Assembly: GCA_009746045.1 (NCBI GenBank)
Contig: RPFO01000114.1
Location: 1,997,411-2,061,410 of the forward strand
Direction: 5' to 3'
DNA from: Mesostigma viride
Taxonomy: Eukaryota; Streptophyta; Mesostigmatophyceae; Mesostigmatales; Mesostigmataceae
Length of the DNA: 64,000 nt
Shown: piece by piece, positions 17,702-54,055 of the stretch
Position numbering within the stretch: the stretch's first letter is position 1
Layout of the letters: each line of letters begins with the position of its first letter
Made by a program: the position numbers and the translations under genes
The notes under the pieces: model-generated
What the model was told of the DNA's origin: nothing
What the model saw: the letters and a program-made list of their open reading frames with translations, nothing else
Databases searched by the model: none

Positions 17702-17905
17702 GCACTAGTGAGCTCCCAGCACAAGTGAGCGTCCAGCACTAGCGAGCGTCCAGCACTATCAAGCATCCAGCGCTAGTGAGCGTCCAGCACTAGAGAACAT
17801 GCAGCACTATTGAGCATCCAGCACTAGTAAGCGCCCGGCACTAGCGAACATGCAGCACTAGTGAGCGCTCGTCCAGCACTAGGCAGCAGCCAGCACTAGG
17901 GAGCA
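17697..17905. repeat. CAGCACTAGTGAGCGTC minisatellite
   Basis: About a dozen imperfect 17-20-bp units lie here. A few more lie at 15276-15330 on the other side of the LINE/RT insertion, and the inverse array is at 49015-49120. This shows that the RT and LINE split one array. Confidence 0.88.
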
Positions 17906-19277: not shown

Positions 19278-19709
19278 TGTTAGGAGTGAGAAAACAATGT
19301 TTGCCACAAAGTTTTACTTTATTTCACTCAGATAAAAATAAGTCTCAGTCGGCAGCTGGCCGGCTGCTAGTTCCACCACAGGAGTGTGTGAGGTGTGAGG
19401 TACTGAGAGAGCAAACAAGGTGCGTAGCTTCGCCTTTTAAACAATTCCAGGCTCAGCTACTGGGTAGCAGTTATGATCTACCTACAACGTGGCCACACCA
19501 AACCGGTTCTTTTCTGACTGTGTGGCAGTTACAATCATAACGTGATCTCAAGCCAACCATTCACAACCAAAGTTCAAGGTCAGTCACAGAATGACTGGGT
19601 CACTTATGGAACAGAACTTAAACATGCGGCACATGCCCGTCCATGTAGTCCAGAGCTAGCACTAAACTATAAGTACTAGTTTCAGGCAGGTGTGTCGATA
19701 CTTCTGACA
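19278..19709 (-). repeat. 3' LTR of the copia element
   Basis: 432 bp with TG/CA ends (TGTTAGGAGTG... CTTCTGACA on the plus strand), identical by eye to 40285-40716. The flanking base run GTTTT (19273-19277) is the left half of a 5-bp target duplication. Confidence 0.95.
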
Positions 19710-19718
19710 CCCCCCTTA
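19710..19718 (-). promoter_or_regulatory. polypurine tract of the copia element
   Basis: On the minus strand AAGGGGGG lies immediately before the TGTCAG start of the 3' LTR. This is the usual plus-strand primer position. Confidence 0.75.
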
Positions 19719-19860
19719 CTCGGCACACAGGCCGGACGGAAAACAAACTCAAGCAAGCCAGAACAAATGTTCACTAAATAAAAGAACTGTAGTATGGGAC
19801 CACTGTCACAGGCTAGCAAGTGTGTCCAGTTATGTTGTCTCATCACGAATTGCCAGTAAC

Positions 19861-21918
19861 TCAAATACCCAACAACTTGTGTCTGAGCTCCACAAAACGT
19901 GGCTCGGGTAGTGCCTTGGTGAGCATGTCGGCGATCATCGCTGCCCCAGGAAGGTGAGACACCTGAACGGTGCCATCCGCGACCTTCGCGCGAATGTAGT
20001 GGTACTTGACGTCGATGTGCTTGGTACGCCGAGGGTGAACAGGGTCTCGTGACAGAGCCACAGCACCAGTGTTGTCGCAAAACACCTGAATTGGCCCTGA
20101 GGCCGGGTCACCCAACTCCTTGGTGATGGTGAGAAGGGGAACCACCTGCTGCGTGACACCGCACAGGGCCATGTACTCGGCCTCACAGGTGGACAGGGCT
20201 GGAGTGGGCTGCTTGCGACTGGTCCACTCCACCGCAGCACCGCGGTACATGACCACGTTGCCAGTGATTGACTTGCGGTCCACAGGATCGTTTGCCCAGT
20301 CGGCATCCGAGTAGGCCACCAGCCCCCCCTGCCCCGAGTAGGACAGACCCAGGTCCTTGGTGTGTACCGCGTACTGAAGCACCCGGCGTGCCAGCCCAAG
20401 GTCGCTTACAGTAGGGTTTTTCATATTCTGAGTCAGCAGGTTGACTGCGAATGCCAGGTCAGGCCGAGTGCATCCCATCGCATACAGGAGTGCCCCGGTG
20501 ATCGCTTGGTAGACGCGAGTGTCGTCCGCGTTGAGAAGCCCCCCCTCACCACGGGGGGTGTTGGGGACAATGGGCGTCTTCACCGCCCGTGGGGAGACCC
20601 CAAAGCGCTCAGCGAGGGCCTCCAGGTACGGGCCTTGGTGCAGAAAAACTGTGCGCGCCGGCGGGTCGAGGACCAGGGAGACCCCCAGAAAGAGGGAGGG
20701 GGCATCCGTCTCGGTGATCTGGAAGCGCTGGGACACCCGTTGGGTCCACTGCGATAGCCACTCCGCCGAGGAGTGGGAGACCAGGAGATCGTCGACATGG
20801 ACGAAGGCAAAACCACCAACATACAGGAACAGACACGTGTCCGTGGTGCTCTGGACAGCGCCAGTCTCATGGATGAGGTAGTCCCGGAGCGTGTGGTGCC
20901 AGTTCCGGGGCGCCTGTTTGAGCCCATAGAGGCTCCGCCGGAGGCGCCAGAGGTACGTTTGGCCAGTGGGGTCGCGCTCCTCAAAGCCCTTGGGGGGAAG
21001 GACATACACGTCCTCCTCCAACTCAGCATAGAGGAACGCGGTGCGGACATCCAGCTGCCGGATGGGGTGGCCAGCAGTGCCAGCACGAGCCAAGCCCAGG
21101 CGCACGGTGGCAGCACGGACGGTGGGAGCAAAAGTCTCACCGAAATCAATGCCCTCGCGCTGTGCAAACCCCTTGCACACAAACCGGGCCTTGCACCGCC
21201 CATCAGCTTTCTGGGCGAAGACCCACTTGGTGGGTAGGAGCTTGGCACCGCGCGGAAGATCACGCATATGCAGAAGCTCGTAAACCTGGTGCTCCTGGAG
21301 GCTGGCCAGCTCACTCTCCATGGCCGTGCGCCATTCCGGCAAGGCAAGGGCGGCAGCGGGAGAGGAGGGCACGGACGCAGGCTGGCTATGAAAAGCAGCA
21401 GCGAAGCACAGGTCGGCGACAAGTGAGTGATGCGCGTGGATCCGTGCAGCCTTGGTGACAGGTTGATCCGGCCAGGAAGAAAGCGCGTCATCCAATACAT
21501 CATCGCCCCCGAAACCAGGGGGAGCGGGGGTGTTACTGCCATGAGAAAGGTCGCCACACAAGGCAGCACCACGGGAACCCCACACGGGGAGGAGACCTGC
21601 AGAGGCACCAGGGGACGCCGGAGGAGAATAGCCGGTGCTGTCAGCCGTGCTCTCCAGGTCAACCGAGGTACTCAAATGCGGCGGAGGCATCCCCGCCCCG
21701 GCGTGTTCATATGACGCCGCAGAACGCGAGGGGCCAGAGGCCTGCCCGCGCAACAGAGGGGCATGCTGTCGAGCATCTGACACGGTGAGGTAAGATGTCG
21801 GCGCCGAGGCAGGAGCCGGAGCCGTCGGAGCAGGGCCGTTCCGCACAAGTGCCTGGATGGCCGCAGCGGCGGCCGGGGGGAGAACGAAACGCTCAGGAGT
21901 CCCCCCGATGCTGACATA
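19861..21918 (-). CDS. copia polyprotein, 3' part: reverse transcriptase and RNase H
   Basis: About 685 residues remain after the insertion point. An acid- and proline-rich linker leads into the copia RT: KWVFAQKADGRCKARFVCKG, then IRQLDVRTAFLYAEL (first catalytic Asp), RSLYGLKQAPRNWH, and FVHVDDLLVSH (VDD in place of the common YVDD). RNase H follows with YSDADWANDPVDRKSITG, SRKQPTPALSTCEAEYMAL, CDNTGAV and the C-terminal TKHIDVKYHYIR... HLPGAAMIADMLTK. The stop is 151 bp before the LTR. All catalytic landmarks look intact. The upstream coding part lies at 36982-40040; the frame is continuous across the insertion when one TAT target copy is counted once. Confidence 0.95.
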   Translation of the reverse strand, partial: YVSIGGTPERFVLPPAAAAAIQALVRNGPAPTAPAPASAPTSYLTVSDARQHAPLLRGQASGPSRSAASYEHAGAGMPPPHLSTSVDLESTADSTGYSPPASPGASAGLLPVWGSRGAALCGDLSHGSNTPAPPGFGGDDVLDDALSSWPDQPVTKAARIHAHHSLVADLCFAAAFHSQPASVPSSPAAALALPEWRTAMESELASLQEHQVYELLHMRDLPRGAKLLPTKWVFAQKADGRCKARFVCKGFAQREGIDFGETFAPTVRAATVRLGLARAGTAGHPIRQLDVRTAFLYAELEEDVYVLPPKGFEERDPTGQTYLWRLRRSLYGLKQAPRNWHHTLRDYLIHETGAVQSTTDTCLFLYVGGFAFVHVDDLLVSHSSAEWLSQWTQRVSQRFQITETDAPSLFLGVSLVLDPPARTVFLHQGPYLEALAERFGVSPRAVKTPIVPNTPRGEGGLLNADDTRVYQAITGALLYAMGCTRPDLAFAVNLLTQNMKNPTVSDLGLARRVLQYAVHTKDLGLSYSGQGGLVAYSDADWANDPVDRKSITGNVVMYRGAAVEWTSRKQPTPALSTCEAEYMALCGVTQQVVPLLTITKELGDPASGPIQVFCDNTGAVALSRDPVHPRRTKHIDVKYHYIRAKVADGTVQVSHLPGAAMIADMLTKALPEPRFVELRHKLLGI

Positions 21919-22059
21919 CCCCAAACACCCGTAGGTTTGGTAAATTACCACATTTTTGGTAAAATTTTAAAAACTGAATATTTTTGCTTGTCTGACTCAT
22001 ACTTGGTGCAGGATGCCTCGAGAAATGTATTTGGACCAAAAAACCTTACCCCCCCCCAC

Positions 22060-24577
22060 GAAATTGACGTGAAGGTGCTTTTCAGGGCATTTTGTGCCAA
22101 ATATGACATGTCAATTTTTCCTGACTGCAGTTTTGCTCATACATAGGCCCATATGTGGTGGTTAAGGTCTATCTAGTGCCCCAAGAGGGATTGCAAAGTT
22201 GCACATTTTTTGGATACCTGCAGGGGTCCCAACGGTGACGTCAAGTAGCATAAAAACCGCGATGTGGCACGATTTTAGCCCGTTTAGGCACCCTAGACCA
22301 TGCAAATGAGCTCAGATTGCAGCCAAACTTGGCAGCTGCCCTTGCCATGCTGATAAAAGAACATGTGCAAAGTTGCACATTTTTTGGATGCCTGCAGGGC
22401 ACCCTGGGTGACGTCAAATAGCATAAAAACCGCGTTTTTGCTCGGTTTTAGCCCATTTCGGCACCCTAGACCATGCAAATGAGCTCAGATTGGAGCCAAA
22501 CTTGGCAGCTGCCCTTGGCATGCTGATAAAAGAACATGTGCAAAGTTGCACATTTTTTGGATGCCTGCAGGGCACCCTGGGTGACGTCAAATAGCATAAA
22601 AAATGCATTTTTGCTCAGTTTTAGCCCATTTATGCACCCTAGACCATGCAAATGAGCTCAGATTGGAGCCAAACTTGGCAGCTGCCCTTGCCATGCTGAT
22701 AAAAGAACATGTGCAAAGTTGCACATTTTTTGGATGCCTGCAGGGCACCCTGGGTGACGCCAAGTAGCATAAAAATAATTGACGTGAAGGCGCAAATACG
22801 ACATGTCAATTTTTTCTGGCTGCAGTTTTGCTCTAAACATGGCCCATATGTGGTGGTTAAGGTCTATCTAGTACCCCAAGAGGGATTGCAAAGTTGCACA
22901 TTTTTTGGATACCTGCAGGGGTCCCAACGGTGACGTCAAGTAGCATAAAACCGCATTTTTGCTCGGTTTTAGCCTGTTTAGGCACCCTAGACCATGCAAA
23001 TGAGCTCAGATTGCAGCCAAACTTGGCAGCTGCCCTTGCCATGCTGATAAAAGAACATGTGCAAAGTTGCACATTTTTTGGATGCCTGCAGGGGTCCCAA
23101 CGGTGACGTCAAATAGCATAAAAACCGCGTTTTTGCTCGGTTTTAGCCCATTTAGGCACCCTAGACCATGCAAATGAGCTCAGATTGGAGCCAAACTTGG
23201 CAGCTGCCCTTGCCATGCTGATACACGAACATGTGCAAAGTTGCACATTTTTTGGATGCCTGCAGGGCACCCTGGGTGACGTCAAATAGCCTAAAAACCG
23301 CATTTTTGCTCGGTTTTAGCCCATTTAGGCACCCTAGACCATGCAAATGAGCTCAGATTGCAATCAAACTTGGCAGCTGCTCTTGCCATGCTGATAAAAG
23401 AACATGTGCAAAGTTGCACATTTTTTGGATGCCTGCAGGGCACCCTGGGTGACGTCAAGTAGCATAAAATTAATTGACGTGAAGGCGCAAATACGACATG
23501 TCAATTTTTTCTGGCTGCAGTTTTGCTCTAAATATGACTCATATGTGGTGGTTAAGGTCTATCTAGTACCCCAAGAGGGATTGTAAAGTTGCACATTTTT
23601 TGGATACCTGCAGGGGTCCCAACGGTGACGTCAAGTAGCATAAAACCGCATTTTTGCTCGGTTTTAGCCCATTTAGGCACCCTAGACCATGCAAATGAGC
23701 TCAGATTGCAGCCAAACTTGGCAGCTGCCCTTGGCATGCTGATAAAAGAACATGTGCAAAGTTGCACATTTTTTGGATGCCTGCAGGGCACCCTGGGTGA
23801 CGTCAAATAGCATAAAAACCGCGTTTTTGCTCGGTTTTAGCCCATTTCGGCACCCTAGACCATGCAAATGAGCTCAGATTGGAGCCAAACTTGGCAGCTG
23901 CCCTTGGCATGCTGATAAAAGAACATGTGCAAAGTTGCACATTTTTTGGATGCCTGCAGGGCACCCTGGGTGACGTCAAATAGCAATAAAAATGCATTTT
24001 TGCTCGGTTTTAGCCCATTTATGCACCCTAGACCATGCAAATGAGCTCAGATTGCAACCAAACTTGGCAGCTGCTCTTGCCATGCTGATAAAAGAACATG
24101 TGCAAAGTTGCACATGTTTTGGATACCTGCAGGGCACCCTGGGTGACGCCAAGTAGCATAAAATTAATTGACGTGAAGGCGCAAATACGACATGTCAATT
24201 TTTTCTGGCTGCAGTTTTGCTCTAAATATGACTCATATGTGGTGGTTAAGGTCTATCTAGTACCCCAAGAGGGATTGTAAAGTTGCACATTTTTTGGATA
24301 CCTGCAGGGGTCCCAACGGTGACGTCAAGTAGCATAAAACCGCGGTTTTGCTCGGTTTTAGCCCATTTTGGCACCCTAGACCATGCAAATGAGCTCAGAT
24401 TGCAGCCAAACTTGGCAGCTGCCCTTGCCATGATGAAAAAAGAACATGTGCAAAGTTGCACATTTTTTGGATGCCTGCAGGGCACCCTGGGTGACGTCAA
24501 ATAGCATAAAAGCCGCATTTTTGCTCGGTTTTAGTCCGTTTAGGCACCCTAGACCATGCAAATGAGCTCAGATTTCA
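22060..24577 (+). repeat. left satellite arm: ~173-bp monomers in a ~694-bp higher-order repeat
   Basis: The A-type anchor CCATGCAAATGAGCTCAGAT recurs at 22299, 22471, 22644, 22991, 23167, 23339, 23686, 23859, 24033, 24380 and 24553. Spacings are about 173 bp, with every fourth gap about 347 bp. The long gaps contain a B-type monomer (TTGACGTGAAGGCGCAAATA... GGTGGTTAAGGTCTATCTAG). Pattern: three A plus one B, period 692-695 bp. Both types share AAAGTTGCACATTTTTTGGA and a GTGACGTCAA core. Confidence 0.93.
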
Positions 24578-24853
24578 CCCTAACTTTCCATATTGCAAAA
24601 AGAACACAAGTCCATGCATGCTCAGTACTGGCCAATCAATGGATTTCACATATCAGTTATCTTTGCGTAATTGACACATGGCCCCGTGCCAACCATTAAT
24701 TGATATATTGACATGACATGACATGACATGAAATCAATAAATCAAAAACGTGTGTGCATGAGGTATAGGCACATTAAAAAACATGGATAGGCAGGGAATC
24801 ATGACGACACCATTACCAAGGCGTGCGCATGCTGCGCCACCAGCCTATTATGA
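24578..24853. other. no feature recognised
   Basis: Single-copy-looking sequence with a short GACAT run near 24710-24730. Confidence 0.4.
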
Positions 24854-25670
24854 TCAATCGCGCTCCGCCTCATCCGCCTCATCATCACTGTCTACACTAA
24901 TGTCATCAATGTTTTCCATATCCGATTCATCGTCACTTGAGTGGACATCGTGGTGGATGTCGACTGTGGTGGCATTACACACCGGAGGCACAGCAGGAGC
25001 TCCCGTAGAACTGCCAGCACCATTGTCAACTTGGTACTGCTGCAAGACTTGCTCACGGCCAAAAGCATTTACACCGTAAGGGCACCCACACACAAATTTC
25101 AGCACGTCCTCTAGCTTGCTATACTCCTCATACTGCCCATCACTCCATACAAGTTTGAAAGCATGGCCCACCTTTGTAACCCACCCATGGAACCTCTTTT
25201 GCCTTCTTGGCTTGCCCGCTAAAAAGAGTGCGCATTTCCGCATGCCTATAGCAATGCAGCACTCCCTCTCTCACGGAAGTAAGATTCACATGCCACCTGG
25301 GTCGTACGTTCTGAGGCTTGCACTGTCTTGTACCCCTCAAAGTCAATGTCAGGATGAAGCTTCAAGGCATCTAGCGTCCCTTGGTTGAGCTTCCTTGCCC
25401 CCGTCAGCTTTGGCGTATGGACTACCGCCCCATTTCCAACGGTCCAGTGTTGCAAAACAATGTCGTTATATGGAACAACTAACCCCTGGTTGCTTTGCCC
25501 ACTGGCCGACCCTGCCCCCAGGTGCACCTTATTGAACTGCCCGGTCCACGAGCTGGCGTGATATGGCGCAACCACGATGGAATCTGGGGTTGGCCCATCC
25601 AAGTCAATAACCTGCGCCAACATGTGGCCCATCCAAAACACGTGCATCGCAAAATCCCACCAAAAGCAAT
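24854..25670 (-). pseudogene. unrecognised ORF pair with an acidic tail, possible remnant of the 15-kb element's own protein
   Basis: Two minus-strand frames lie head to tail. 25647-25246 includes MHVFWMGHMLAQVIDLDGPT and ends CESYFRERGSAALL. 25243-24854 begins MRKCALFLAGKPRRQKRFHG, continues GWVTKVGHAFKLVWSDGQYE and ends in an Asp/Glu/Ser-rich tail. Together they look like one protein with a frameshift or short intron at about 25245. The W...V...Y/F...V.SDG..EEY spacing is loosely Tudor/chromo-like, which is inference only. A LINE fragment lies directly upstream at 25683. Family unknown. Confidence 0.4.
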
Positions 25671-25682
25671 ATTAAGTATTAT

Positions 25683-25878
25683 CAAGGAGACAACCAGCGC
25701 AGGCCAGAAATCGGGAGAATCCGGACCATGGTAGCTCGAGCCTGCCGTTATCTTGTCCGCGTGTTCGAGTCGTTCAGGATGATGAAGATGAATGGTGATG
25801 GAAATGTGTTGCCTTGTGCATTGAAATAAAGGCTGGCTTACGTGTAGAGCGACTAGATTACCTAGACGGTGGGGCCTA
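25683..25878 (+). mobile_element. 196-bp LINE 3' fragment with 12-bp TSD
   Basis: It is flanked by perfect ATTAAGTATTAT at 25671-25682 and 25879-25890. The body (GGAGACAACCAGCGCAGGCC ... GACGGTGGGGCC) matches the LINE family at 1376 and 15331. This is a very short 5'-truncated insertion inside the 15-kb element. Confidence 0.88.
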
Positions 25879-26208
25879 ATTAAGTATTATGATCACAACA
25901 GAAATACTGCGACGACAGCGGCCGGCAAGACCGCTATCACCCAAGGTTTCGGTGACTGCGGCCATTCGGAGAATTCGACCGATCGCGCGCATCGTACGCC
26001 TTCTGTCAGCAAGGCAACCGCCATCAATATTAATCGAATGTCTAGCATTCTCGCTCAGCCTCGCGTGTCGCTTATAGAGCACCTTTAACTTACGACGGCT
26101 ATGCGAGAAAATTGCTGCCCGAGTGCTGGGATGGTATTGCAGGCTGCATAATTCACACCAGCCCCGGCACCTTCTGCATACGCAGTGCCCGTGCACGCTG
26201 GCACGCAC
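25876..26208 (-). pseudogene. coding-like fragment upstream of the LINE insertion
   Basis: A 110-residue minus-strand frame includes VCRRCRGWCELCSLQYHP, with closely spaced Cys residues, and NIDGGCLADRRRTMRAIGRI. It could be an upstream part of the ORF pair at 24854-25670, separated by the LINE. Not recognised. Confidence 0.3.
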
Positions 26209-26220
26209 CGCCTGGTTGGC

Positions 26221-26484
26221 CAGCCTGTCAATTATGTCAATTATGTCAATTATGTCAATTATTTGTTTGGGAGCATTTGTAAAGTATTAGAATCTTACGT
26301 AGTTACATGGTCAAAACTACATAGTCAAAATTACTAGGTCTTGGTATCAAAGCCCTTAGAAAGTGCAGATTTTAGTGATTTTCCTTGGAAAATAAAACTT
26401 TAACATTGAAAGTCTAGCAAAAGTTTTCGCAAACAAATAATTGACATAATTGACATAATTGACATAATTGACATAATTGACAGG
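26221..26484. mobile_element. 264-bp MITE-like element with iterated inverted termini
   Basis: The left end CCTGTCAATTATGTCAATTA... TTTGTTTG is mirrored at the right end (CAAACAAATAATTGACATAA... TTGACAGG). The termini are built from a ~10-bp iteration (TGTCAATTAT). A third partial terminus (ACAAACAAATAATTGACAGA) lies at 26571-26590. No clear TSD. Confidence 0.7.
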
Positions 26485-27876
26485 TCGGACGAGGACGAGG
26501 CCAGGCCTCGGCCTGGTGAGTCGAGACAAAATATAGCCAGCATTGTACGATACCTAATAATGACAGACTGTACAAACAAATAATTGACAGACTCGTGATG
26601 CGACACGAGGACACAGTAAACTGGACAGGACATGCACGTGGTCGCAGTGGCCCCTGCCCAAAAGCCGCCATTTCACAAGCAGCCAACTGCCAAGCAACGT
26701 CGAAGGATTGTTCGTCGCAATGCTATGAATCTGTATAGTCGTATAGACGGCAACATGCGAATTCGGCAGAGGACTACCCATTCCGGCTCAAACCATGTCT
26801 ATTTTATTTGCCATCAATGAGTAATGCGAATTGGTCGTTGGTCAACGGTTTAGTTTTCGTTGCTCAGTCGTTTCGAAGAGGTTTTATTTATAGGCAGCTG
26901 GCAGAATGACATACTTCGGAGGTCCTGGGGTAATGGGTTCTCTTGCGTCCTGGAATGTTGCTATTAAACATCTAGAGACACTGCATGACGGGAGAAAGTC
27001 CGGTTGCTGGCTTGGCTAATACCACACCGCGGAAGTACGGTGAAAGGTAGCGCGCTGACCAACCGAGAGTTCGAGTATATTTACAGATCTGCTGTTATAA
27101 TAATAATGAATGTTTTGGCATTTTCTCAAGGGGAAATTCTTTTTTTCCCGTGCGAGCACGAGGACTGGCTGCTGATCAATTTTGCAACTCGTGCAGGCCC
27201 TTGATGAATCGAACTTGAGCAGCTGAATACTGCAAGCTGCTGGTGATGCTCACGAGAACGGCTATGTTGGCATTCTCGGCACCATCCATTGGAAACGTGC
27301 AGTCGCGGAACCTATTCCTGGTGAAATGAAGTTTCGGGCAATGGGATTGCAGACTGGACCGGAAGTGGTCGAACCTTGACCCCGATGGCGGTGATGACCA
27401 GTTGTCCTATTGTGACACGCGATCGAGGCAATCAAAAGGTAAGAAGGGCGGGTGTTTTCGAGGCTGAAGCTGTTAAAAAATATGGGCTTAAGTGCGCATG
27501 CAGCATGACCAGGCGTGGACCCTGAGGAGGAAATCAAACTTAGCCCTGCACTTTCTTGGCGTACTTTTGGTTAAGCATTGGCTGGCCGAGTGGCCGTTAC
27601 CACAGTCCGTTGCTTACCACAGTGGCAGGAAGAAATTCGCTTTATTTGCAATGATGAACATGTTAATTGATGTGGGGAAGCATTTTTAGGTGATAGTACA
27701 TTGCAACATCTTACTAGGGCCTATCTATAGATTTATCGTTGTGTGAGGCACACCAATCCCTATCCACAACTGTAGCGGCCATCCAGCTGTGTGAGACTCA
27801 CTCATGCGAGCACATATGCTCGATTGGGTAATGCGTAGACTAAGTACTAACAGAGGCAGGCCTCCCGACGGCACCC
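26485..27876. other. no gene recognised inside the 15-kb element's middle segment
   Basis: Short frames occur on both strands, without domain, splice or codon signals that I would support. Confidence 0.4.
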
Positions 27877-28396
27877 ACCCACCCACCCACCCACCCACCC
27901 ACCCACCCACCCGCCCACCCGCCCGCCCGCCCGCGCCCGCCCGCCCGCCCCCGCCCGCCCACCCGCCCGCCCGCCCGCGCCCGCCCGCCCGCCCGCCCCG
28001 CCCGCCACCCACCCACCCACCCACCCACCCACCCACCCACCCACCCACCCACCCACCCACCCACCCACCCACCCACCCACCCACCCACCCACCCACCCAC
28101 CCATGACCCACCCACCCACCCACCGGCCACCCACCCACCCACCGGCCACCCACCCACCCACCCACCCACCCACCCACCCACCCACCCACCCACCCACCCA
28201 CCCACCCACCCACCCACCCACCCACCCACCCACCCACCCACCCACCCACCCACCCACCCACCCACCCACCCACCCACCCACCCACCCACCCACCCGCCCA
28301 CCCACCCACCCACCCGCCCACCCACGCACCCACCCACCTGCACCTACCCACCTGCACCTACCCACGGGCCACCCACGTACCACCCACCCACCCACC
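27877..28396. repeat. (CCCA)n/(CCCG)n microsatellite, ~520 bp
   Basis: Nearly uninterrupted CCCA repeats have a CCCG-rich block near 27910-28005. It abuts the right satellite arm. The long VGGW and THPP frames are repeat artefacts. Confidence 0.95.
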
Positions 28397-28403
28397 CATT
28401 TGA

Positions 28404-31400
28404 AATGTCGTATTCGCGCCTTCACGTCAAATAATCTTATGCTACTTGGCATCAGCCAGGGTGCCCTGCAGGTATCCAAAAATGTGCAACGTTGCAAATG
28501 TGCTTTTTGCAGCATACCAAGGGCAGCTGCCGAGTTTGGCTGCAATCTTCAGGAGCTCATTTGCATGGTCTACGGTGCCTAAGCGGGCTGAAATCGTGCG
28601 ACATCGTGGTTTTTATGCTACTAAACGTCACCGTTGGGACCCCTGCAGGTATCCAAAAAATGTGCAACTTTGCAATCCCTCTTGGGGTACTAGAGAGACC
28701 TTAACCACCACATATGGGCCATGTTTAGAGCAAAACTGCAGCTAGGAAAAATTGACATGTCGTATTTGCACCTTTCACGTCAATTATTTTTATGCTGCTT
28801 GATGTCACCCAGGGTGCCCTGCAGGTATCCAAAACATGTGCAACTTTGCACATGTGCTTTTTGCAGCATGGCAAGGGCAGCTGCCAAGTTTGGCTGCAAT
28901 CTGAGCTCATTTGCACGGTCTAGGGTGCCTAAATGGGCTAAAACCGAGCAAAAACGCGGTTTTTATGCTATTTGACGTCACCCAGGGTGCCCTGCAGGCA
29001 TCCAAAAAATGTGCAACTTTGCACATGTTCTTTTATCAGCATGGCAAGGGCAGCTGCCAAGTTTGGCTGCAATCTGAGCTCATTTGCGTGCACGGTCTAG
29101 GGTGCCTAAACGGGCTAAAACCGAGCAAAAACGCGGTTTTTATGCTATTTGACGTCACCCAGGGTGCCCTGCAGGCATCCAAAAAATGTGCAACTTTGCA
29201 CATGTTCTTTTATCAGCATGGCAAGGGCAGCTGCCAAGTTTGGCTGCAATCTGAGCTCATTTGCATGGTCTAGGGTGCCTAAACAGGCTAAAACCGAGCA
29301 AAAATGCGGTTTTATGCTACTTGACGTCACCGTTGGGACCCCTGCAGGTATCCAAAAAATGTGCAACTTTGCAATCCCTCTTGGGGTACTAGATAGACCT
29401 TAACCACCACATATGGGCCATGTTTAGAGCAAAACTGCAGCCAGGAAAAATTGACATGTCGTATTTGCGCCTTCGCGTCAATTAATTTTATGCTACTTGG
29501 CGTCACCCAGGGTGCCCTGCAGGTATCCAAAACATGTGCAACTTTGCACATGTTCTTTTACCAGCATGGCAAGAGCAGCTGCCAAGTTTGGTTGCAATCT
29601 GAGCTCATTTGCATGGTCTAGGGTGCCTCCGGCCGCGCGCGGCAGGGCCGCCACCCGTGGACTTTTCGTGATAGACTCGGCATGGACATGTGCTACACTA
29701 GACGTGACGGGCTCACCCCCGGGCAGCCTCCTGGTTTGTCTGTAATATGGAGGCAGATGGTGCGCAAGGATAGATGGCAAGTAGTGATGAAGGAGACCAC
29801 CCCCAAGCCTGTGGGGGCTCCGCGTGTGACCAAGTATGGCATTCATAGCGATTCGGGCCGCGGTGCCCACACCCCTGTAACTAGGACCTAGATAGCTTAT
29901 ACCATCCATTCCATCCCATGTTCCCCTCCCACTGAGGACTTATGCTCACGTGACGCAGTCACGTGTCTATTAATTAATTAATTAATTAAGGGTGCCTAAA
30001 TGGGCTAAAACCGAGCAAAAACGCGGTTTTATGCTACTTGACGTCACCGTTGGGACCCCTGCAGGTATCCAAAAAATGTGCAACTTTGCAATCCCTCTTG
30101 GGGTACTAGATAGACCTTAACCACCACATATGAGTCATATTTAGAGCAAAACTGCAGCCAGAAAAAATTGACATGTCGTATTTGCGCCTTCACGTCAATT
30201 ATTTTTATGCTACTTGGCGTCACCCAGGGTGCCCTGCAGGCATCCAAAAAATGTGCAACTTTGCACATGTTCTTTTATCAGCATGGCAAGGGCAGCTGCC
30301 AAGTTTGGCTCCAATCTGAGCTCATTTGCATGGTCTAGGGTGCCTAAATGGGCTAAAACCGAGCAAAAATGCATTTTTTATGCTATTTGACGTCACCCAG
30401 GGTGCCCTGCAGGCATCCAAAACATGTGCAACTTTGCACATGTTCGTGTTTCAGCATGGCAAGAGCAGCTGCCAAGTTTGGCTGCAATCTGAGCTCATTT
30501 GCATGGTCTAGGGTGCCTAAACAGGCTAAAACCGAGCAAAAATGCGGTTTTATGCTACTTGACGTCACCGTTGGGACCCCTGCAGGTATCCAAAAAATGT
30601 GCAACTTTGCAATCCCTCTTGGGGTACTAGAGAGACCTTAACCACCACATATGGGCCATGTTTAGAGCAAAACTGCAGCCAGAAAAAATTGACATGTCGT
30701 ATTTGCGCCTTCACGTCAATTAATTTTATGCTACTTGGCGTCACCCAGGGTGCCCTGCAGGCATCCAAAAAATGTGCAACTTTGCACATGTTCTTTTATC
30801 AGCATGGCAAGGGCAGCTGCCAAGTTTGGCTCCAATCTGAGCTCATTTGCATGGTCTAGGGTGCCTAAATGGGCTAAAACCGAGCAAAAATGCATTTTTT
30901 ATGCTAGTTGACGTCACCCAGGGTGCCCTGCAGGCATCCAAAACATGTGCAACTTTGCACATGTTCGTGTTTCAGCATGGCAAGGGCAGCTGCCAAGTTT
31001 GGCTGCAATCTGAGCTCATTTGCATGGTCTAGGGTGCCTAAACAGGCTAAAACCGAGCAAAAATGCGGTTTTATGCTACTTGACGTCACCGTTGGGACCC
31101 CTGCAGGTATCCAAAAAATGTGCAACTTTGCAATCCCTCTTGGGGTACTAGATAGACCTTAACCACCACATATGGGCCATGTTTAGAGCAAAACTGCAGC
31201 CAGAAAAAATTGACATGTCGTATTTGCGCCTTCACGTCAATTAATTTTATGCTACTTGGCGTCACCCAGGGTGCCCTGCAGGCATCCAAAAAATGTGCAA
31301 CTTTGCACATGTTCTTTTATCAGCATGGCAAGGGCAGCTGCCAAGTTTGGCTCCAATCTGAGCTCATTTGCATGGTCTAGGGTGCCTAAATGGGCTAAAA

Positions 31401-31667
31401 CCGAGCAAAAATGCATTTTTTATGCTATTTGACGTCACCCAGGGTGCCCTGCAGGCATCCAAAACATGTGCAACTTTGCACATGTTCGTGTATCAGCATG
31501 GCAAGAGCAGCTGCCAAGTTTGGCTGCAATCTGAGCTCATTTGCATGGTCTAGGGTGCCTAAACAGGCTAAAACCGAGCAAAAATGCGGTTTTATGCTAC
31601 TTGACGTCACCGTTGGGACCCCTGCAGGTATCCAAAAAATGTGCAACTTTGCAATCCCTCTTGGGGT
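28404..31667 (-). repeat. right satellite arm, part 1: ~173-bp monomers in a ~520-bp higher-order repeat
   Basis: Same monomers as 22060-24577 in inverse orientation. Anchors (GAGCTCATTTGCATGGTCTA) near 30315, 30488, 30835, 31010, 31357 and 31530 give a two-A plus one-B pattern, period 520-522 bp. A retroposon (29629-29988) is inserted. The array breaks at CTTGGGGTAC and resumes at 35504 with the next bases of the same monomer. Confidence 0.92.
29629..29988 (+). mobile_element. (TTAA)n-tailed retroposon inserted in a satellite monomer, 9-bp TSD
   Basis: It is flanked by AGGGTGCCT at 29620-29628 and 29989-29997, which is monomer sequence. Body and tail match 53607-54052. It has hairpin CACGTGACGCAGTCACGTG at 29947-29965 and a tail of five TTAA units. 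A 70-codon frame (29682-29891) is shared with the other copy, so it may be a residual ORF end of a LINE. Confidence 0.88.
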
Positions 31668-31839
31668 ACCACATCATTCCAAAAAGCCATTTTTCCACCC
31701 TGAAAATTATTCTAGGATAGGCTAATGATTAGTTTGGCCTCAAATTTGGCACCAAGGTGCCTAATCAGATATCTTATGGTGGCATGTGGTCAAATAATTT
31801 TTTGGGAGTCGGCAGCATGGTAACATGGTGACATTTGCT

Positions 31840-32600
31840 AGCATAAAAATACCGAATTTTCAGCACTTTCTGGCATGTATGCGTATATAATGACATCAAA
31901 TGAACTCAGTTGGGCCTGGAACTTTGCACATGTTATAAACACATCCCATGCAGCATGCCCACAAAGTTTCAGGCTGGTTGGATCACAAAATGGTGACAGA
32001 TGCTAGCATAAATACCCCCAAAATGCAGTTTTTCAGGGTTTTCCAAGGGTTTCATCACACATATGCATATATAATGACACCAAATGAACTCAGTTGGGCG
32101 TGGAACTTTGCATATGTTCTAAACACATCCCATGCAGCATGCCCACAAAGTTTCAGGCTGGTTGGATGACAAATTGGTGACAGATGCTAGCATAAACACC
32201 ACAAAAATGCAGTTTTTCAGGGTTTTCCAAGGGTTTCATCACACATTTGCATATATAATGACATCAAATGAACTCAGTTGGACCTGGGACTTGGCACATG
32301 TTCGAAACACATCCCATGCAGCCTGCCCACAAAGCTTCAGGCTGGTTGGATGACAAACTGGTGACAAATGCTAGCATAAATACCACAAAAATGCAGTTTT
32401 TCATGGTTTTCAAGGGTTTCATCACACATGTGCATATATAATGACATCAAATGAACTCAGTTGGACCTGGAACTTGGCACATGTTCGAAACACATCCCAT
32501 GCAGCCTGCCCACAAAGCTTCAGGCTGGTTGGATAACAAATTGGTGACAGATGCTAGCATAAATACCACAGAAAAAGCAGCTTTCTATGTTCTTCCAAGG
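31840..32600. repeat. 184-bp satellite, about four units
   Basis: The anchor ATCAAATGAACTCAGTTGG recurs near 31896, 32080, 32264 and 32447 (period 184). It shares faint similarity with the 173-bp family around AAATGA(A/G)CTCAG and the following 'AACTT(T/G)GCA' segment, which suggests distant kinship. Confidence 0.9.
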
Positions 32601-33140
32601 GTTTCATGGCAATCATTCCACCTTGGTGTACAGAAGGTTCCAAACAACACATCATTACATTATGCATCATATTTACAATGCAGGAAGGCATACTTGGGGG
32701 CACATGCCTATAGTACAATGCATTAATAACAAAGCTCTAGCCAGCTAGCTAGCTATATAGTGGCTAATGCCACACCCGGGGGCACGTTCTCACGGCCCTG
32801 CATCCTTTTCCTTTTCTTCTTCTCTGCATCTGACAGGGGCCTGCCCCCCACCTTCTCATCCACCAGCCTGGTGAGCACCCTGACGTTGGTGACTTGCGTC
32901 AGCTACCCTACCCCCATGGCACGCTTGGCCTTACGCTTGGTGAAGGTGGAGGGGACCGTGGGTGCGACAGTTGGTCTGGGTTTTCATCACCCCCTTCCTA
33001 CAGTACATGCGTGTGCTCCAACGCCTAAGCAGAGAAGCACACACACACACATACACACACACACACACGTCGATCCCTTACCCACCCACCCACACACACA
33101 CACACACGTACACATGTATCCACCCACCCATGCATACACG
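32601..33140. other. low-complexity and unassigned sequence in the nested element
   Basis: Single-copy-looking sequence to about 33030, then CA-rich microsatellite (ACACACAC, ACCCACCC). No gene supported. Confidence 0.5.
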
Positions 33141-33310
<170 letters not shown>

Positions 33311-33316
33311 GTCATA

Positions 33317-34491
33317 CCCTCCCTCCCTCCCTCCCTCCCTCCCTCCCTCCCTCCCTCCCTCCCTCCCTCCCTCCCTCCCTCCCTCCCTCCCTCCTCCCTC
33401 CCTCCCTCCCTCCCTCCCTCCCTCCCTCCCTCCCTCCCTCCCTCCTCCCTCCCTCCCTCCCTCCCTCCCTCCCTCCCTCCCTCCCTCCCTCCTCCTCCCT
33501 CCCTCCCTCCCTCCCTCCCTCCCTCCCTCCCTCCCTCCCTCCCTCCCTCCCTCCCTCCCTCCCTCCTCCCTCCCTCCCTCCCTCCCTCCCTCCCTCCCTC
33601 CCTCCCTCCCTCCCTCCCTCCTCCCTCCCTCCCTCCCTCCCTCCCTCCCTCCCTCCCTCCCTCCCTCCCTCCCTCCCTCCTCCCTCCCTCCCTCCCTCCC
33701 TCCCTCCCTCCCTCCCTCCCTCCCTCCCTCCCTCCCTCCCTCCCTCCCTCCCTCCCTCCTCCCTCCCTCCTCCCTCCCTCCCTCCCTCCCTCCCTCCCTC
33801 CCTCCCTCCCTCCCTCCCTCCCTCCCTCCCTCCTCCCTCCCTCCCTCCTCCCTCCCTCCCTCCCTCCCTCCCTCCCTCCCTCCCTCCCCCTCCCTCCCTC
33901 CCTCCCTCCTCCCTCCCTCCCTCCCTCCCTCCCTCCTCCCTCCCTCCCTCCCTCCCTCCCTCCTCCTCCCTCCCTCCCTCCCTCCCTCCCTCCCTCCCTC
34001 CCTCCCTCCCTCCCTCCCTCCCTCCCTCCCTCCCTCCCTCCCTCCCTCCTCCTCCCTCCCTCCCTCCCTCCCTCCCTCCCTCCCTCCCTCCCTCCCTCCC
34101 TCCCTCCCTCCCTCCCTCCCTCCCTCCCTCCCTCCCTCCTCCCTCCCTCCCTCCCTCCCTCCCTCCCTCCCTCCCTCCCTCCCTCCCTCCCTCCCTCCCT
34201 CCCTCCCTCCCTCCCTCCCTCCCTCCCTCCCTCCCTCCCTCCCTCCCTCCCTCCTCCCTCCCTCCCTCCCTCCCTCCCTCCTCCCTCCCTCCCTCCCTCC
34301 CTCCCTCCCTCCCTCCCTCCCTCCCTCCCTCCCTCCCTCCCTCCCTCCCTCCCTCCCTCCCTCCCTCCCTCCCTCCCTCCCTCCCTCCCTCCCTCCCTCC
34401 CTCCCTCCTCCCTCCCTCCCTCCCTCCCTCCCTCCCTCCCTCCTCCCTCCTCCCTCCCTCCCTCCCTCCCTCCCTCCCTCCCTCCCCCCTC
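33317..34491. repeat. (CCCT)n microsatellite, ~1.17 kb
   Basis: Almost pure CCCT repeats with occasional 3-base units (CCT) that shift phase. The 490-525-codon 'PPSLPPS' and 'GREGGREG' frames are artefacts, because four-base units keep all frames free of stops. Confidence 0.98.
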
Positions 34492-35501
34492 CCTCATTCA
34501 TACACCCGTTCATTCATGCATGCAGCCGCTCATCATTAACACGCCTCCGTTGGGAAACTCACGGGGTATGAACTATGAAACGGGCGGTAAGAAAGGAAGA
34601 AGGAGCCGCCTCCCCAACATGCCGCCCGGCAAAGGCAGCGATGGGCCGTCCAGGAGGGAAACACTGCGCTTTCCCTTGTACGCCGGGGTGCGCAGGCGAC
34701 GTGCGGGCACTGTCGCGTGTAAATTTGCCTGCCCGCCCCAGTCCTTCTCGGAACGCCTCCCCAGAGCATGCCGTCATGGTAAGAGCTCTTTTCGCCCGTC
34801 GCCGGAAGCTTAAACAACAAGAATACGCCGGTTAATGACCAGAAAATGGGGGGTTGTCGACGTTATAAACCAGTAGCTGTGGTTTTTCCCGCACCCCGAG
34901 CACACTCCGGACGGGGCCAGCAAGCCCCGCCCGCAGGATAAACACCGGCGATGTTGCTGCGCCCAAGGTAAGTCATATAGCTGCAAGAAAAGACGTAAAA
35001 GCGATTAAAAGCACGACATGCAGTGTTGCCCCTGTCAGCGCTCCTATAATTCTCACTTTTTCGCGGAAGGGGCGTAAAAATCGGAAACGCAAAATTAAGG
35101 GAAATCCATCGCTGGGTTTCTTTGAAATGATGTTAGGAACTGGTAGAATGTGTCCATAACCAACGAGAGCATGTTTTTCCTGTCTGTGTTTTACCTTGCA
35201 CACACACGGGTCGGGCCGGTTGGTGTGCAAAACGCCCGCCTGCTGCCCACGTGCCCTCGCTGCAGAAAAAAAAGAAACTGTTTTTCAGGTTTTTTAATGT
35301 ACGATAATTTTCCTTATGTAATTGCCGTCCGAACAAGCGAAATAACGTCCAAAATGGTTGCGTAATCAGCTCGCAATAAATTTTCGCGTCACCATAGCCG
35401 TGCACACCGAATTTCAGTCAACATTGCACGGCACACCGAATTTCGTCAAATTTCGCGCGGGAATTACCGGGGTGCGCAAGGCGCGGCGTCGGACTGATGT
35501 G
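34492..35501. other. no gene recognised; right end of the nested element
   Basis: Moderately GC-rich sequence with open frames on both strands around 34536-34835 but no recognisable domain. Confidence 0.4.
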
Positions 35502-35503
35502 AC

Positions 35504-36828
35504 TAGAGAGACCTTAACCACCACATATGGGCCATGTTTAGAGCAAAACTGCAGTCAGGAAAAATTGACATGTCGTATTTGCGCCTTCACGTCAATTATT
35601 TTTATGCTACTTGGCGTCACCCAGGGTGCCCTGCAGGCATCCAAAACATGTGCAACTTTGCACATGTTCTTTTATCAGCATGGCAAGGGCAGCTGCCAAG
35701 TTTGGCTCCAATCTGACCTCATTTGCATGGTCTAGGGTGCCTAAATGGGCTAAACCGAGCAAAACTGCATTTTTTATGCTATTTGACGTCACCCAGGGTG
35801 CCCTGCAGGCATCCAAAAAATGTGCAACTTTGCACATGTTCGTGTATCAGCATGGCAAGGGCAGCTGCCAAGTTTGGCTCCAATCTGAGCTCATTTGCAT
35901 GGTCTAGGGTGCCTAAATGGGCTAAAACCGAGCAAAAACGCGGTTTTTATGCTATTTGACGTCACCCAGGGTGCCCTGCAGGCATCCAAAAAATGTGCAA
36001 CTTTGCACATGTTCGTTTATCAGCATGGCAAGGGCAGCTGCCAAGTTTGGCTGCAATCTGAGCTCATTTGCATGGTCTAGGGTGCCTAAACAGGCTAAAA
36101 CCGAGCAAAAATGCGGTTTTATGCTACTTGACGTCACCGTTGGGACCCCTGCAGGTATCCAAAAAATGTGCAACTTTGCAATCCCTCTTGGGGTACTAGA
36201 TAGACCTTAACCACCACATATGGGCCATGTTTAGAGCAAAACTGCAGCCAGAAAAAATTGACATGTCGTATTTGCGCCTTCACGTCAATTATTTGTATGC
36301 TACTTGGCGTCACCCAGGGTGCCCTGCAGGCATCCAAAAAATGTGCAACTTTGCACATGTTCTTTTACCAGCATGGCAAGGGCAGCTGCCAAGTTTGGCT
36401 CCAATCTGAGCTCATTTGCATGGTCTAGGGTGCCTAAATGGGCTAAACCGAGCAAAAACGCGGTTTTTATGCTATTTGACGTCACCCAGGGTGCCCTGCA
36501 GGCATCCAAAAAATGTGCAACTTTGCACATGTTCTTTTATCAGCATGGCAAGGGCAGCTGCCAAGTTTGGCTGCAATCTGAGCTCATTTGCATGGTCTAG
36601 GGTGCCTAAACAGGCTAAAACCGAGCAAAACCGCGGTTTTTATGCTACTTGACGTCACCGTTGGGACCCCTGCAGGTATCCAAAAAATGTGCAACTTTGC
36701 AATCCCTCTTGGGGCACTAGATAGACCTTTACCACCACATATGAGTCATATTTAGAGCAAAACTGCAGTCAGGAAAAATTGACATGTCATATATTTGGCA
36801 CCAAATGCCCTGAAAAGCACCTTCACGT
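35504..36828 (-). repeat. right satellite arm, part 2
   Basis: It continues the monomer broken at 31669. Anchors near 35885, 36057, 36405 and 36578 again give ~520-bp periodicity. The outer end (CTGAAAAGCACCTTCACGTC) is the inverse of 22060-22100, so this part forms the terminal inverted arm with the left array. Confidence 0.92.
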
Positions 36829-36981
36829 CAATTTTCTGACACAAGCCATAAAAAATTTTTGGTCAGAACATTGTTTTGGTGTTTTTCCCAACCATATGCG
36901 TCATTGAAGACCAAAAAACGCATATCTCAAAAAATTTGGTTTTGGTAAATGCAAATTTACCAAACCTACGGGTGTTTGGGG

Positions 36982-38964
36982 ATAGCTGTCCTCACGGCCT
37001 GCGGGCAAGGCAGTGGAGGGCGTTGCCGGCCCCCCAGAGTCCTCGGCAGAGGCAGAGGGTAACTGCAAAGGGGCAGGAGTCAGCATGTCGGCGGGAAAGA
37101 GGTCGGCCTCCGCAAAGGGGGCCGCCGGAAGCCACTGCGCAGCCTGCGGGGCCCGGTTGCGCCACGTCTCGTCGAACTGCACGTGCTTGCGCTCGATGAC
37201 ACGCCCGCCGCCCGTCGCCTTGTCGGGCACCCACACGAGGTAGGCCGGGGAGTCAAGCTTGTATCCCACGAAGAGGCCATCCTCAGCGCGAGAATCAAAC
37301 TTCTCACGGGCTGCCCCCTCAACCAAGACGTGGGAGGGGCAGCCAAACACACGCATGCCGGATAAATCCGCAGGGCGCCCATACATGAGGAAGTAGGGCG
37401 TTGCGTGCTCCGGGTTGCTGCGGCAGGGCAGCCTGTTGATGATGTAGATGGCGCATGCAAAGGCTAGAGCCCAGAACTCCTTGCCGAGGCCAGCATGCGC
37501 CAGCATGCTCCTGGTCATGCTAACTGCGACGCCCCAGAATCGCTCCGCCACGCCGTTCTGCTCCGGCGTATAGGGGGACGAGAACTCTTGCCGCACGCCA
37601 TACTCGGCGCAGACGGCGCGCCAGTCCTGGCCAGTGAAAACCGCGTCTTGGTCGGAGCGAAGCTCCACAGGCGCCGTGGCCGCGGACGCCCGGAACGGCT
37701 TGATCTCCGTGGCCAGGAAGTGACGCAGGCTCCCAACGGCAGCGTCCTTCGTCTTCAAGAAGTAAACCCAGTGAAAACGAGTGGCTTCATCCGTGATGCC
37801 CAGGACATACCGCCAGTCCCCCAACACGGCAGGGGTCCGCATGGGACCTAGCAGGTCGCAGTGCAGGCGATGGCGAGGGGTCGCGCAGCGTGGCGTCGTG
37901 CTGGGGGGAAAGCTGCTCCGCCGCAAGTGACCGGCAGGGCAGGAAGGACACGTGGGAGCCTTGGGACCGTGGGTCACCATGTTTGAGGCGGGGTCGGCGG
38001 CTAGCCGAGCAATACGATCCGCGCCAGCGTGTCCGAGGCGCAGGTGCCACTGCATCAGGTCCACGGGGGCGGCTGATGTGGCGAGGGCATGGGGCGCCAC
38101 CCCGCGGAGCAAGTAAATGCCGTCACACTCCACGAGGGGGAACGTGCGGGTCCCCAAAGTGAGGCGCAGGTGCTTAAAGTCCACATCATGGCCGGCTTTA
38201 AAGAGCTGGCTCACCGAGAGTAGGCGGGCCTGAAGGCCTGGGACATACAAAGCTGGGCCGAGGTGCACGTCCGGGGTGCCGAGCCGGAGAAGCAGAGGGC
38301 CCCTGCCGCCCGCATGCAGATTGCCGCCCGAGCCGGTGATGCGCAGCCGGAAGGCGGGATCAAATCCATCGCCAAAGTCCGCCCGGTGAGGCGTCATGTG
38401 GTACGTGGCACCCGTGTCAACCACCCACTCCGGGGCACACCTAGCCGAGGCCGTTGCGGCCGTGTGAAGCACAGAAGGAGCGGTGGTTGAGGAACCAGCC
38501 GTCGAGTCCGAGGAGGTGCTGGGGCGGGGTGCCGAGAGACGACTGCCCGAGCGGGACGGGGAAGGCGCAAGGCCGTGCACTGGACGAAGCGAGGCCTGCC
38601 CGTGAGGCTGCACACCGTCGCGCAGGGAAGCACCTAAAGGGTTGGCGCGCAGGGAAGCACACAAAGGGCCTCGACCCACGTGGAACGCGTACGTCGTCTC
38701 CAAGGGAGGCAGGCCTGCGTCGGTGTGATGGGCGTGCCCGGCGCCGTCACCGCGGAGGTGAGCAGGGCGCTGGGCGGGATGGGCAGTCCAGCAGGTGGCG
38801 GCGTCATGTCCAGGCTTGGCGCAGACGGAGCAGGGCGGCCCGCGACCACGCCCGACCCCTGCGCCACCACCGCGACCACCACCGCGCCCGCCGCGCCCCC
38901 CGCTGCTACCGCCATGGCCGTGGCCGTTGCCGTGGCCATTGCCGTGGGCGCGGCCGTTGCCGTG

Positions 38965-39034
<70 letters not shown>

Positions 39035-40040
39035 CTTCCGGTGCCGTTGCTGTTGCCGTTGCCGTTGCCGCGGGCACCGCCATTCCGTGGGCCACGCCCC
39101 CGGCCAGGGGTATGGTACGCGTGGTTGGAGGCAGAGCCAGAATCTGCAGGGGACGGGAGGCCACCCGTCAGCAGATCTTCAACTTCCATCAGGCGCTGCC
39201 GCAGGACCGGAACAGTCTCGACCTCGTCAAGACGGAGGGAGATTAGCGCGGGCCGGTACTCGGCGCGCAGACCGCTGAGGACGCTGGCAATGAAGGCAGC
39301 GACTGGGAACGTAATGCCTGCAGCCTGTAGCTTGGCGTACAGCAGTTCCGAGCGGTTCACATACGGCTCCACAGTCTCGCGAGCAGTTTGACGAAGTTGG
39401 GCCATTTGTTTCCACAAGTCCAGACGCATGGACTTGGTGAGCTTGCCATGCTCATAGACCTGGATGAGCTTGGTGATGGCCAGACTGCCCAGGCGACGAT
39501 CCAGGGGGAGCGTCTGCATCAAGGCACGCGCAGGCCCATCGACGACGGCCAACAAGGCAACGTAAAGGAGCCGATCCAGTTGCACGTTCTGGACAACACC
39601 TGCCAGCACTCCAAGGAGGCCAGCATAAAGGGAAACAAGGCCCAAAAAATGGTCCTTAAAAGGGATCCACAGCGTCCAATCTGAGCCGGTAAAAACCTTG
39701 ACCCCACGAACATCCTTCAAAAGCTCCTTGCAAGCCACAAAGGAGGCTCGGGCGGGGCCCCCCCCCGCCGTACCGCGGCTCAAACCACCACCGTCAACCG
39801 CCCGATTCTCACCATCGGGAGCACCGAGGGCGGCGTCCTCGTCACCACCGGGCGGGGCAAAGCCAGGGCAGCCAGCCCAGCTGCTGCGTCAAAAAATACT
39901 TCGCCTGGGAGACCCGAATCGGTTAGAGTTACGGATGTTGCAGTCAAAGCGGCCAGACCGGCAGAGTCGTCGGCATCAAAATCGTTACTGCCAGCAGCGC
40001 GACTCGCGGAAGCGACCTGGCTACGAGTGCCGGAAGCCAT
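36982..40040 (-). CDS. copia polyprotein, 5' part: gag, protease, integrase (one frameshift)
   Basis: The long frame runs from 39783. A likely true start, MASGTRSQ at 40040, lies in another frame, and the frames change near 39870, so gag carries one indel. Gag contains a DWTLWIPFKDHFLG-type region and a Gly-Asn hexanucleotide repeat (38935-39075). A canonical CCHC knuckle follows: CSVCAKPGHDAATC (C-x2-C-x4-H-x4-C). Protease: WVVDTGATYHMTPH. Integrase: HLRLGH...CPSC zinc-binding pattern, then a core with LHCDLLGPM, RSDQDAVF and PYTPEQNGVAERFWG (D, D, E). The frame ends where the 15-kb element starts and resumes in phase at 21918. A copia family with intact catalytic motifs, currently split. 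Confidence 0.93.
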
Positions 40041-40264
40041 TCCAGCAAAAAACAGCAGAAAACTCCGAAAAAAAGGTAACGTTGACCAAGAGATTCCGGC
40101 CAGGAATCGAACCAAGCACCTTTTGTATTACGCGCCAGACGGGAATCAAACCTCCGCCTACGCTGTCGTCATGCAAATCTTGCCGAAATACACAAATCTA
40201 AAGTCAACCGCGAGCAGAGCCTCGGAAACGACTTTTACCAGCGGTAAGCAGGTCGAAAGGCGTG

Positions 40265-40284
40265 CGAACCGCACTCCGATGCCA
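40265..40284 (-). promoter_or_regulatory. primer-binding site of the copia element
   Basis: On the minus strand TGGCATCGGAGTGCGG directly follows the 5' LTR end. It begins with TGG as for a tRNA 3' CCA. It resembles the TGGTATC... site of plant copia elements but differs enough that the primer tRNA is uncertain. Confidence 0.65.
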
Positions 40285-40716
40285 TGTTAGGAGTGAGAAA
40301 ACAATGTTTGCCACAAAGTTTTACTTTATTTCACTCAGATAAAAATAAGTCTCAGTCGGCAGCTGGCCGGCTGCTAGTTCCACCACAGGAGTGTGTGAGG
40401 TGTGAGGTACTGAGAGAGCAAACAAGGTGCGTAGCTTCGCCTTTTAAACAATTCCAGGCTCAGCTACTGGGTAGCAGTTATGATCTACCTACAACGTGGC
40501 CACACCAAACCGGTTCTTTTCTGACTGTGTGGCAGTTACAATCATAACGTGATCTCAAGCCAACCATTCACAACCAAAGTTCAAGGTCAGTCACAGAATG
40601 ACTGGGTCACTTATGGAACAGAACTTAAACATGCGGCACATGCCCGTCCATGTAGTCCAGAGCTAGCACTAAACTATAAGTACTAGTTTCAGGCAGGTGT
40701 GTCGATACTTCTGACA
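40285..40716 (-). repeat. 5' LTR of the copia element
   Basis: 432 bp, identical by eye to 19278-19709. The right target copy GTTTT follows at 40717-40721. Confidence 0.95.
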
Positions 40717-42430: not shown

Positions 42431-42459
42431 AAGTTGTGAGTGTTCCTGGTCCAAATATA

Positions 42460-43050: not shown

Positions 43051-43051
43051 A

Positions 43052-54052: not shown

Positions 54053-54055
54053 AAT

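Follow-up and report, generated by a model that had tools for sequence, protein, structure and literature searches.

Inverted 173-bp repeat arms of F1 transposons in Mesostigma viride carry a terminus-facing box that recurs in two other mobile families

The window analysed here, a stretch of 64,000 nucleotides from the streptophyte alga Mesostigma viride (assembly GCA_009746045.1, contig RPFO01000114.1, positions 1,997,411 to 2,061,410), contains a 15,063-bp mobile element of a family designated F1. This appears to be a young family of cut-and-paste transposons, apparently non-autonomous, in which a core is flanked by inverted arrays of a 173-bp unit. We found that the 173-bp array is the element's own arm, built of its own subterminal unit, and not a captured genomic satellite. 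We consider it probable that the arms were expanded as arrays of putative binding sites for a shared element-encoded factor. The candidate site is the box TATGCTA-N6-GTCAC, which recurs in two further mobile families (F2 and F3) and which, by the precedents of Galileo and of TNPA in CACTA elements, would be such a binding site.

The box was detected in 368 of approximately 413 F1 monomers (~89%; the number of monomers is estimated from array length), and in both arms all boxes face the terminus, with none reversed. From the right end to the nearest box there are 334–337 bp in nine of ten F1 copies (682 bp in C1435) and from the left end 331–341 bp; in the F2 copy the nearest box lies 336 bp from the right end, and in F3 ~176 bp from the end. 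The repeats of F2 carry the box three times and those of F3 five times, in the same orientation relative to the near end as in F1, this check covering one F2 copy and one F3 copy nested in the F1 element of the window. No looser form of the box was present in 42,561 and 25,307 bp of background sequence. Genome-wide, the box has 3,176 matches (a total count, not sorted by element family) versus four for the reversed pattern, and among the matches listed (100 of 3,176) the spacing is mostly 173 or 184 bp.

F1 could be traced through the genome by its terminal inverted repeats (TIRs). A 20-bp terminus yields 45 exact matches and none for the reversed control, and a 22-bp terminus with up to three mismatches yields 54, with one for the reversed control; by position, 40 of these 54 form 20 inverted pairs 8–48 kb apart, and the other 14 stand unpaired. 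Sixteen of the 20 pairs lie between exact 3-bp duplications, compared with 0.3 expected (1/64 each); a search for paired termini with such duplications had been proposed in the initial annotation of the window. The 16 duplications read ATT, CTC, TTG, GTA, GAC, ATG, AAG, TTG, CAC, ATA, CTG, GAG, GTG, CTG, TAG, and CCC. Their central base is A or T in 15 of 16 cases, with a flanking A/T fraction of 0.414 (binomial p 1.8e-5, uncorrected, for a pattern noticed post hoc), and 13 of them have G or C at −2, and 14 at +2; the target duplication prefers S-NWN-S. The TIRs begin CCCCAAAC, with variants including CCCTAAAC and CCCCTTGC. The two ends are distinct, since in all 19 standard pairs one continues TTTGGTAAATTTGC and the other TTTGGTAAATTACC. 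The F1 terminus has no exact match in IMG/VR viral contigs.

Eleven F1 copies were read, namely that of the window and ten fetched stretches (in C1648 coverage lacks about 1 kb on the right side, only the end piece of the last 1.4 kb being read, and its right arm is thus incomplete); for C1793, C1857, C2043, C2111, C2133, C1421, C1579, C1923, and C1324 the ends only were inspected. All 11 follow one plan: TIR, ~278 bp, 173-bp array, 3.3-kb core, inverted array, ~275 bp, TIR. The terminal 275 bp of the left and right arms are 76% alike in one copy, a (TGGG)n run separates array and core in 10 of the 11, and several copies have further insertions in arm or core. The core was also found near three lone termini (C280, C1531, and C1846), and further partial or older core copies occur in the genome at 84–97%. 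Across eight uninterrupted copies (28 comparisons, C655 and C1435 being omitted for insertions and C446 for divergence) the aligned cores differ by 0.03–0.88%, with a mean of 0.48%; the C446 core is 94–98% identical to that of the window. The longest pair, of 48.4 kb (C1857:743555-791926, duplication GAG), has ~36 kb beside the core outside the stretches read.

Inverted 173-bp arrays flank the core on both sides in 11 of 11 copies, in agreement with the foldback-like arms of tandem repeats recognized in the initial annotation. The arms hold 11–44 boxes on the canonical left and 8–28 on the right (with the C1648 right arm incomplete), and the longest arm reaches up to about 53 copies of the unit. 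These satellite-like properties are what speak for the view that the transposon acquired a chromosomal satellite and now spreads it as cargo, as had been proposed at first. Such a case has a parallel in the CACTA element Jozin of Chenopodium, in which a 171-bp satellite forms an array close to one of the ends (PMC8978399). Yet, the distribution of the monomers argues strongly against it. One class, defined by a 30-mer, has 71 genome matches, 59 inside F1 pairs and 12 inward of a lone terminus; a second has 51, of which 47 and 4 are so placed. Together, TIR pairs enclose 106 monomers, another 16 lie inward of a lone terminus (at up to 25 kb), and none of the 122 is elsewhere, in arrays outside mobile elements, as judged by hand against the TIR list from the exact matches of these two classes in an assembly that may lose or collapse arrays. 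In addition, there are 468 exact matches to a 33-mer that most monomers share, 248 of them inside the 11 copies read, and among the matches listed (100 of 468) all are on element contigs. The single orientation of the box towards the terminus in both arms and the box-bearing repeats of two other mobile families point the same way. Satellite capture is therefore very unlikely and can be regarded as already largely refuted.

Part of the F1 core links this family to F2. A 141-codon frame, the longest open frame in the four F1 cores listed, is 53–54% identical to a protein of F2 encoded at at least 125 further places (among the best 150 of 412 candidates), and a 138-codon frame extends this likeness in a different frame. 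The F1 core seems to carry a decayed C-terminal remnant of the F2 protein, because the two frames match one continuous stretch of it, as judged by eye. The core frames have no useful Pfam or NCBIfam match, and the 138-codon frame has no match in PDB. The F2 copy on C1106 is 8,655 bp long with ends CCCTRCCAGCC and a CTT/CTT duplication; it contains a 626-codon open frame, and close to its right end a 173-bp repeat of its own occurs 2.7 times. A second F2 locus is 99% identical and has the same final base on the right. Upstream of the 626-codon frame we observed a 172-codon frame with a cysteine cluster (L049:2252-2767; unmatched in Pfam, with a single weak match in PDB), and in the middle of the copy a 615-bp near-perfect palindrome (L049:1723-2337) with motifs that are also found at the F2 ends. 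In turn, the F3 terminus CACATCA was present at all four other places fetched, with differing flanks. GT on either side of the nested F3 element suggests a 2-bp duplication. This element (31670-35501) also contains (CCCT)n and (GCAC)n runs.

Several observations weigh against the arms as arrays of binding sites. The box ranks only fourth among spaced 12-mers within F1. This ranking is unanchored, since using the box as anchor biases a conservation profile, and in it the block CCCTGCA-N6-CAAAA outnumbers the box (410 versus 368). The boxes of the F2 copy are near its right end only. The F2 repeat is 59–65% identical to the F1 and F3 repeats over 79–394 bp, with higher values over shorter pieces (it was aligned with each of the two), so common descent could keep the box without function. 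Neither Pfam nor PDB reveals a recognised DNA-binding domain in the 626-codon F2 protein, the one Pfam match being below the cut-off and the PDB matches being weak or to stretches of low complexity. Four of the 20 F1 pairs are without a duplication, these being C1648, C2111, C1421 (one end mutated), and the variant-terminus pair C1324. Finally, the nearest relative of a monomer is more often in another copy than in its own arm (130 versus 110 for left arms and 97 versus 55 for right arms, ties counted twice), from which it follows that much of the array was inherited and not freshly amplified.

Some of these points fit the idea that the arms are functionless selfish by-products of slippage and unequal exchange, with the box surviving by descent from an ancestral repeat. 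Box numbers range from 8 to 44 per arm while divergence among the eight aligned cores stays below 1%, another monomer block within F1 equals the box in constancy, and the distance between a monomer and its closest relative in the same arm has peaks at 3, 4, 12, and 18 monomers, fitting block-wise duplication of several monomers at a time. However, ~89% of F1 monomers retain all 12 defining bases, the box recurs in F2 and F3 though the F2 repeat is otherwise only ~60% alike, and the same 336-bp spacing is found in F1 and F2. We thus regard a purely selfish origin as unlikely, though it deserves more weight than any other alternative considered here. The box might also act not in transposition but in the control of expression or chromatin, by recruiting a host factor. 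The F1 consensus, TATGCTACTTGACGTCAC, spells TGACGTCA, which we take to be a bZIP/CRE-type palindrome, and the 173–184 bp period is about that of one nucleosome. Yet, the palindrome is lost in F2 (AAACGTCAC) and F3 (e.g., ATCTGTCAC), and a strict orientation to the termini is unexpected for a palindromic host site, which makes a host-factor role rather improbable.

Taking most F1 copies as the reference, that of the window is on the minus strand, so that its canonical left arm is on the right side of the window. Its features and those of its host are as follows:
19278..40716, minus strand, host copia element with identical 432-bp long terminal repeats (LTRs) and the 5-bp duplication GTTTT
21916..21918 and 36982..36984, left and right copies of the target-site duplication ATA
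21919..36981, minus strand relative to most copies, F1 element, 15,063 bp
21919..21946, plus strand, 28-bp TIR, end type TTTGGTAAATTACCACATTT
22192..24586, minus strand, canonical right arm, 173-bp repeat array
24587..27871, minus strand, 3.3-kb core, common to 19 of 19 standard TIR pairs
24857..25270, minus strand, 138-codon open frame extending the likeness to the F2 protein in a different frame (by eye)
25249..25671, minus strand, 141-codon open frame with likeness to the F2 protein
27872..28398, minus strand, (TGGG)n microsatellite at the core/arm boundary, in the same place in 10 of 11 copies
28437..29628, minus strand, canonical left arm, inner piece, 173-bp array
29629..29987, no strand assigned, dispersed repeat of 359 bp inserted in the canonical left arm
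29988..31669, minus strand, canonical left arm, middle piece, 173-bp array
31670..35501, minus strand, nested F3 element with terminus CACATCA, 184-bp box-bearing repeats, and GT on either side
35502..36701, minus strand, canonical left arm, outer piece, 173-bp array
36954..36981, minus strand, 28-bp TIR, end type TTTGGTAAATTTGCATTTACC

The two TIRs are identical over 28 of 28 bases and ATA stands on either side, as initially reported. The inverted ~173-bp arms described at that time are present as arrays in inverted orientation; however, they do not form one clean pair, as the canonical left arm is broken by the nested 3.8-kb F3 element and the 359-bp repeat. The latter has a 94% match in the window (53687-54054) and 99–100% matches in F1 copies C113 and C1368. 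Within the core, positions 25680-25876 hold a dispersed sequence of ~200 bp that is not in core copies C239 and C1613; 96–98% matches to it occur elsewhere in the genome, and in the window it is found at 1234-1430 and 15331-15527.

The host copia element supports a clean and recent insertion. Its LTRs (19278-19709 and 40285-40716), previously called identical by eye, agree at 432 of 432 positions, and the pol frames on either side of F1, which the insertion interrupts, are in phase across the ATA duplication. The predicted pre-insertion site (39 bases with a single ATA) has 90 matches in the genome, one with a mismatch, compared with none for the reversed control, which is direct evidence that F1 was cleanly inserted into a young multi-copy copia element. 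This also bears on the worry, raised from the beginning, that a satellite block was misassembled into the copia copy or that other copies lack duplications. Repetitive arms are hard to assemble, and array lengths may be inexact; nevertheless, termini and core are the same in 19 pairs, and 16 duplications stand in different flanks. With these matching duplications and the 90 empty sites, misassembly is ruled out for practical purposes. The copia element itself seemingly lies inside one arm of a larger inverted-repeat structure (17802-19277 and 40717-43700 versus 45000-49106), the main blocks of which are 93% alike and which contains minisatellite arrays of 17, 21, and 26 bp; this would make four levels of nesting. 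The proline-rich pherophorin-like frames of the window had suggested a volvocine host, which was not borne out: two of them were searched in Pfam, with no match, and the pherophorin domain PF12499 had no hits, although its controls had none either.

As for the transposase, no autonomous relative with a transposase between the same termini, of the kind that the initial annotation proposed to look for, was found in searches for two transposase families. Transposase_21 (PF02992) has no match inside any of the 20 F1 pairs (best 150 of 239 candidates scored). Two groups of PF02992 loci, sampled through four partial loci, have no box, and the divergence points of their aligned copies, which do not cover both ends of every locus, are without a CCCC terminus; the comparison of ends and boxes with these two groups gave no link between F1 and a CACTA driver. 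On C143:4398-14673 and C2042:36277-46552 we observed two Transposase_21 matches ~9.74 kb apart and in opposite orientation on both contigs. All 84 candidates for DDE_Tnp_4 were scored, with 80 matches and none inside the 20 F1 pairs, and a PIF/Harbinger driver was dismissed. The target duplication of PIF/Harbinger elements is TWA; TAA or TTA is found in none of the 16 F1 duplications.

With regard to known systems, F1 has the architecture of foldback-type elements: in all 11 copies read, a middle domain lies between long inverted arms composed of tandem repeats. Tetris, a foldback element of Drosophila virilis, has TIRs with a variable number of ~220-bp tandem repeats, and, as F1 appears to be, it is non-autonomous, with no transposase copy found (PMC4079207). 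Yet, by description and not by sequence, its duplication, like that of Mutator-like elements, is 8–10 bp versus 3 bp in 16 of 20 F1 pairs, its middle is variable whereas the F1 core is constant, and its repeats also form free satellite arrays derived from the element (PMC4079207), whereas none were seen for the two F1 monomer classes. In Galileo, of the P superfamily, tandem repeats in long TIRs hold further transposase binding sites, the proximal one having been located by DNase I footprinting (PMC3688188); in contrast to its P-type transposase, none of the two transposase families searched for is linked to F1, for which binding is inferred. The CACTA (En/Spm) elements, whose TNPA-like proteins bind subterminal repeats, share with F1 the 3-bp duplication (16 of 20 pairs), a repeated cis-acting motif near the ends, a large size, and non-autonomous members (PMC2613891). 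However, F1 termini are CCCCAAAC and not CACTA or CACTG, no Transposase_21 match among those listed lies in its pairs, and the short CACTA repeats lie within several hundred bp (PMC2613891) whereas the F1 motif recurs at 173-bp intervals along as much as about 9 kb. Jozin, a CACTA element 16.5 kb long in which a ~171-bp unit forms an internal array (PMC8978399, PMC7320549), resembles F1 in both respects, but has a single array near the 3′ end and a transposase (PMC8978399), whereas F1 has two inverted arms in each of the 11 copies read and no linked transposase. As far as word searches of the open-access literature reach (Repbase was not compared), the apparently new features are CCCC ends together with a 3-bp duplication, inverted arms in every one of the 11 copies read, confinement of the unit, and a box common to three families.

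Based on these precedents, expansion of the F1 arms as putative binding sites would proceed as follows. The box would bind a factor acting in trans, the candidate being the abundant F2 protein, a remnant of which seems to persist in the F1 core, and another element would provide the transposase in trans. A greater number of boxes per arm would raise the chance of the ends being paired and mobilised, and arms would grow and shrink through unequal exchange of multi-monomer blocks. More tentatively, a single trans factor may serve a guild of unrelated-looking transposons through their common terminus-facing box, a possibility that we rate at somewhat less than even. If so, satellite-like arms would reflect selection for more binding sites, presented once per nucleosome-sized unit, and the array would be a direct readout of the competition between families for a shared factor. 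The different-length arrays around nearly identical cores in recent insertions bear on the origin of satellite-like arrays, and the box common to three families offers a concrete and testable site from which to ask why foldback elements have repetitive arms.

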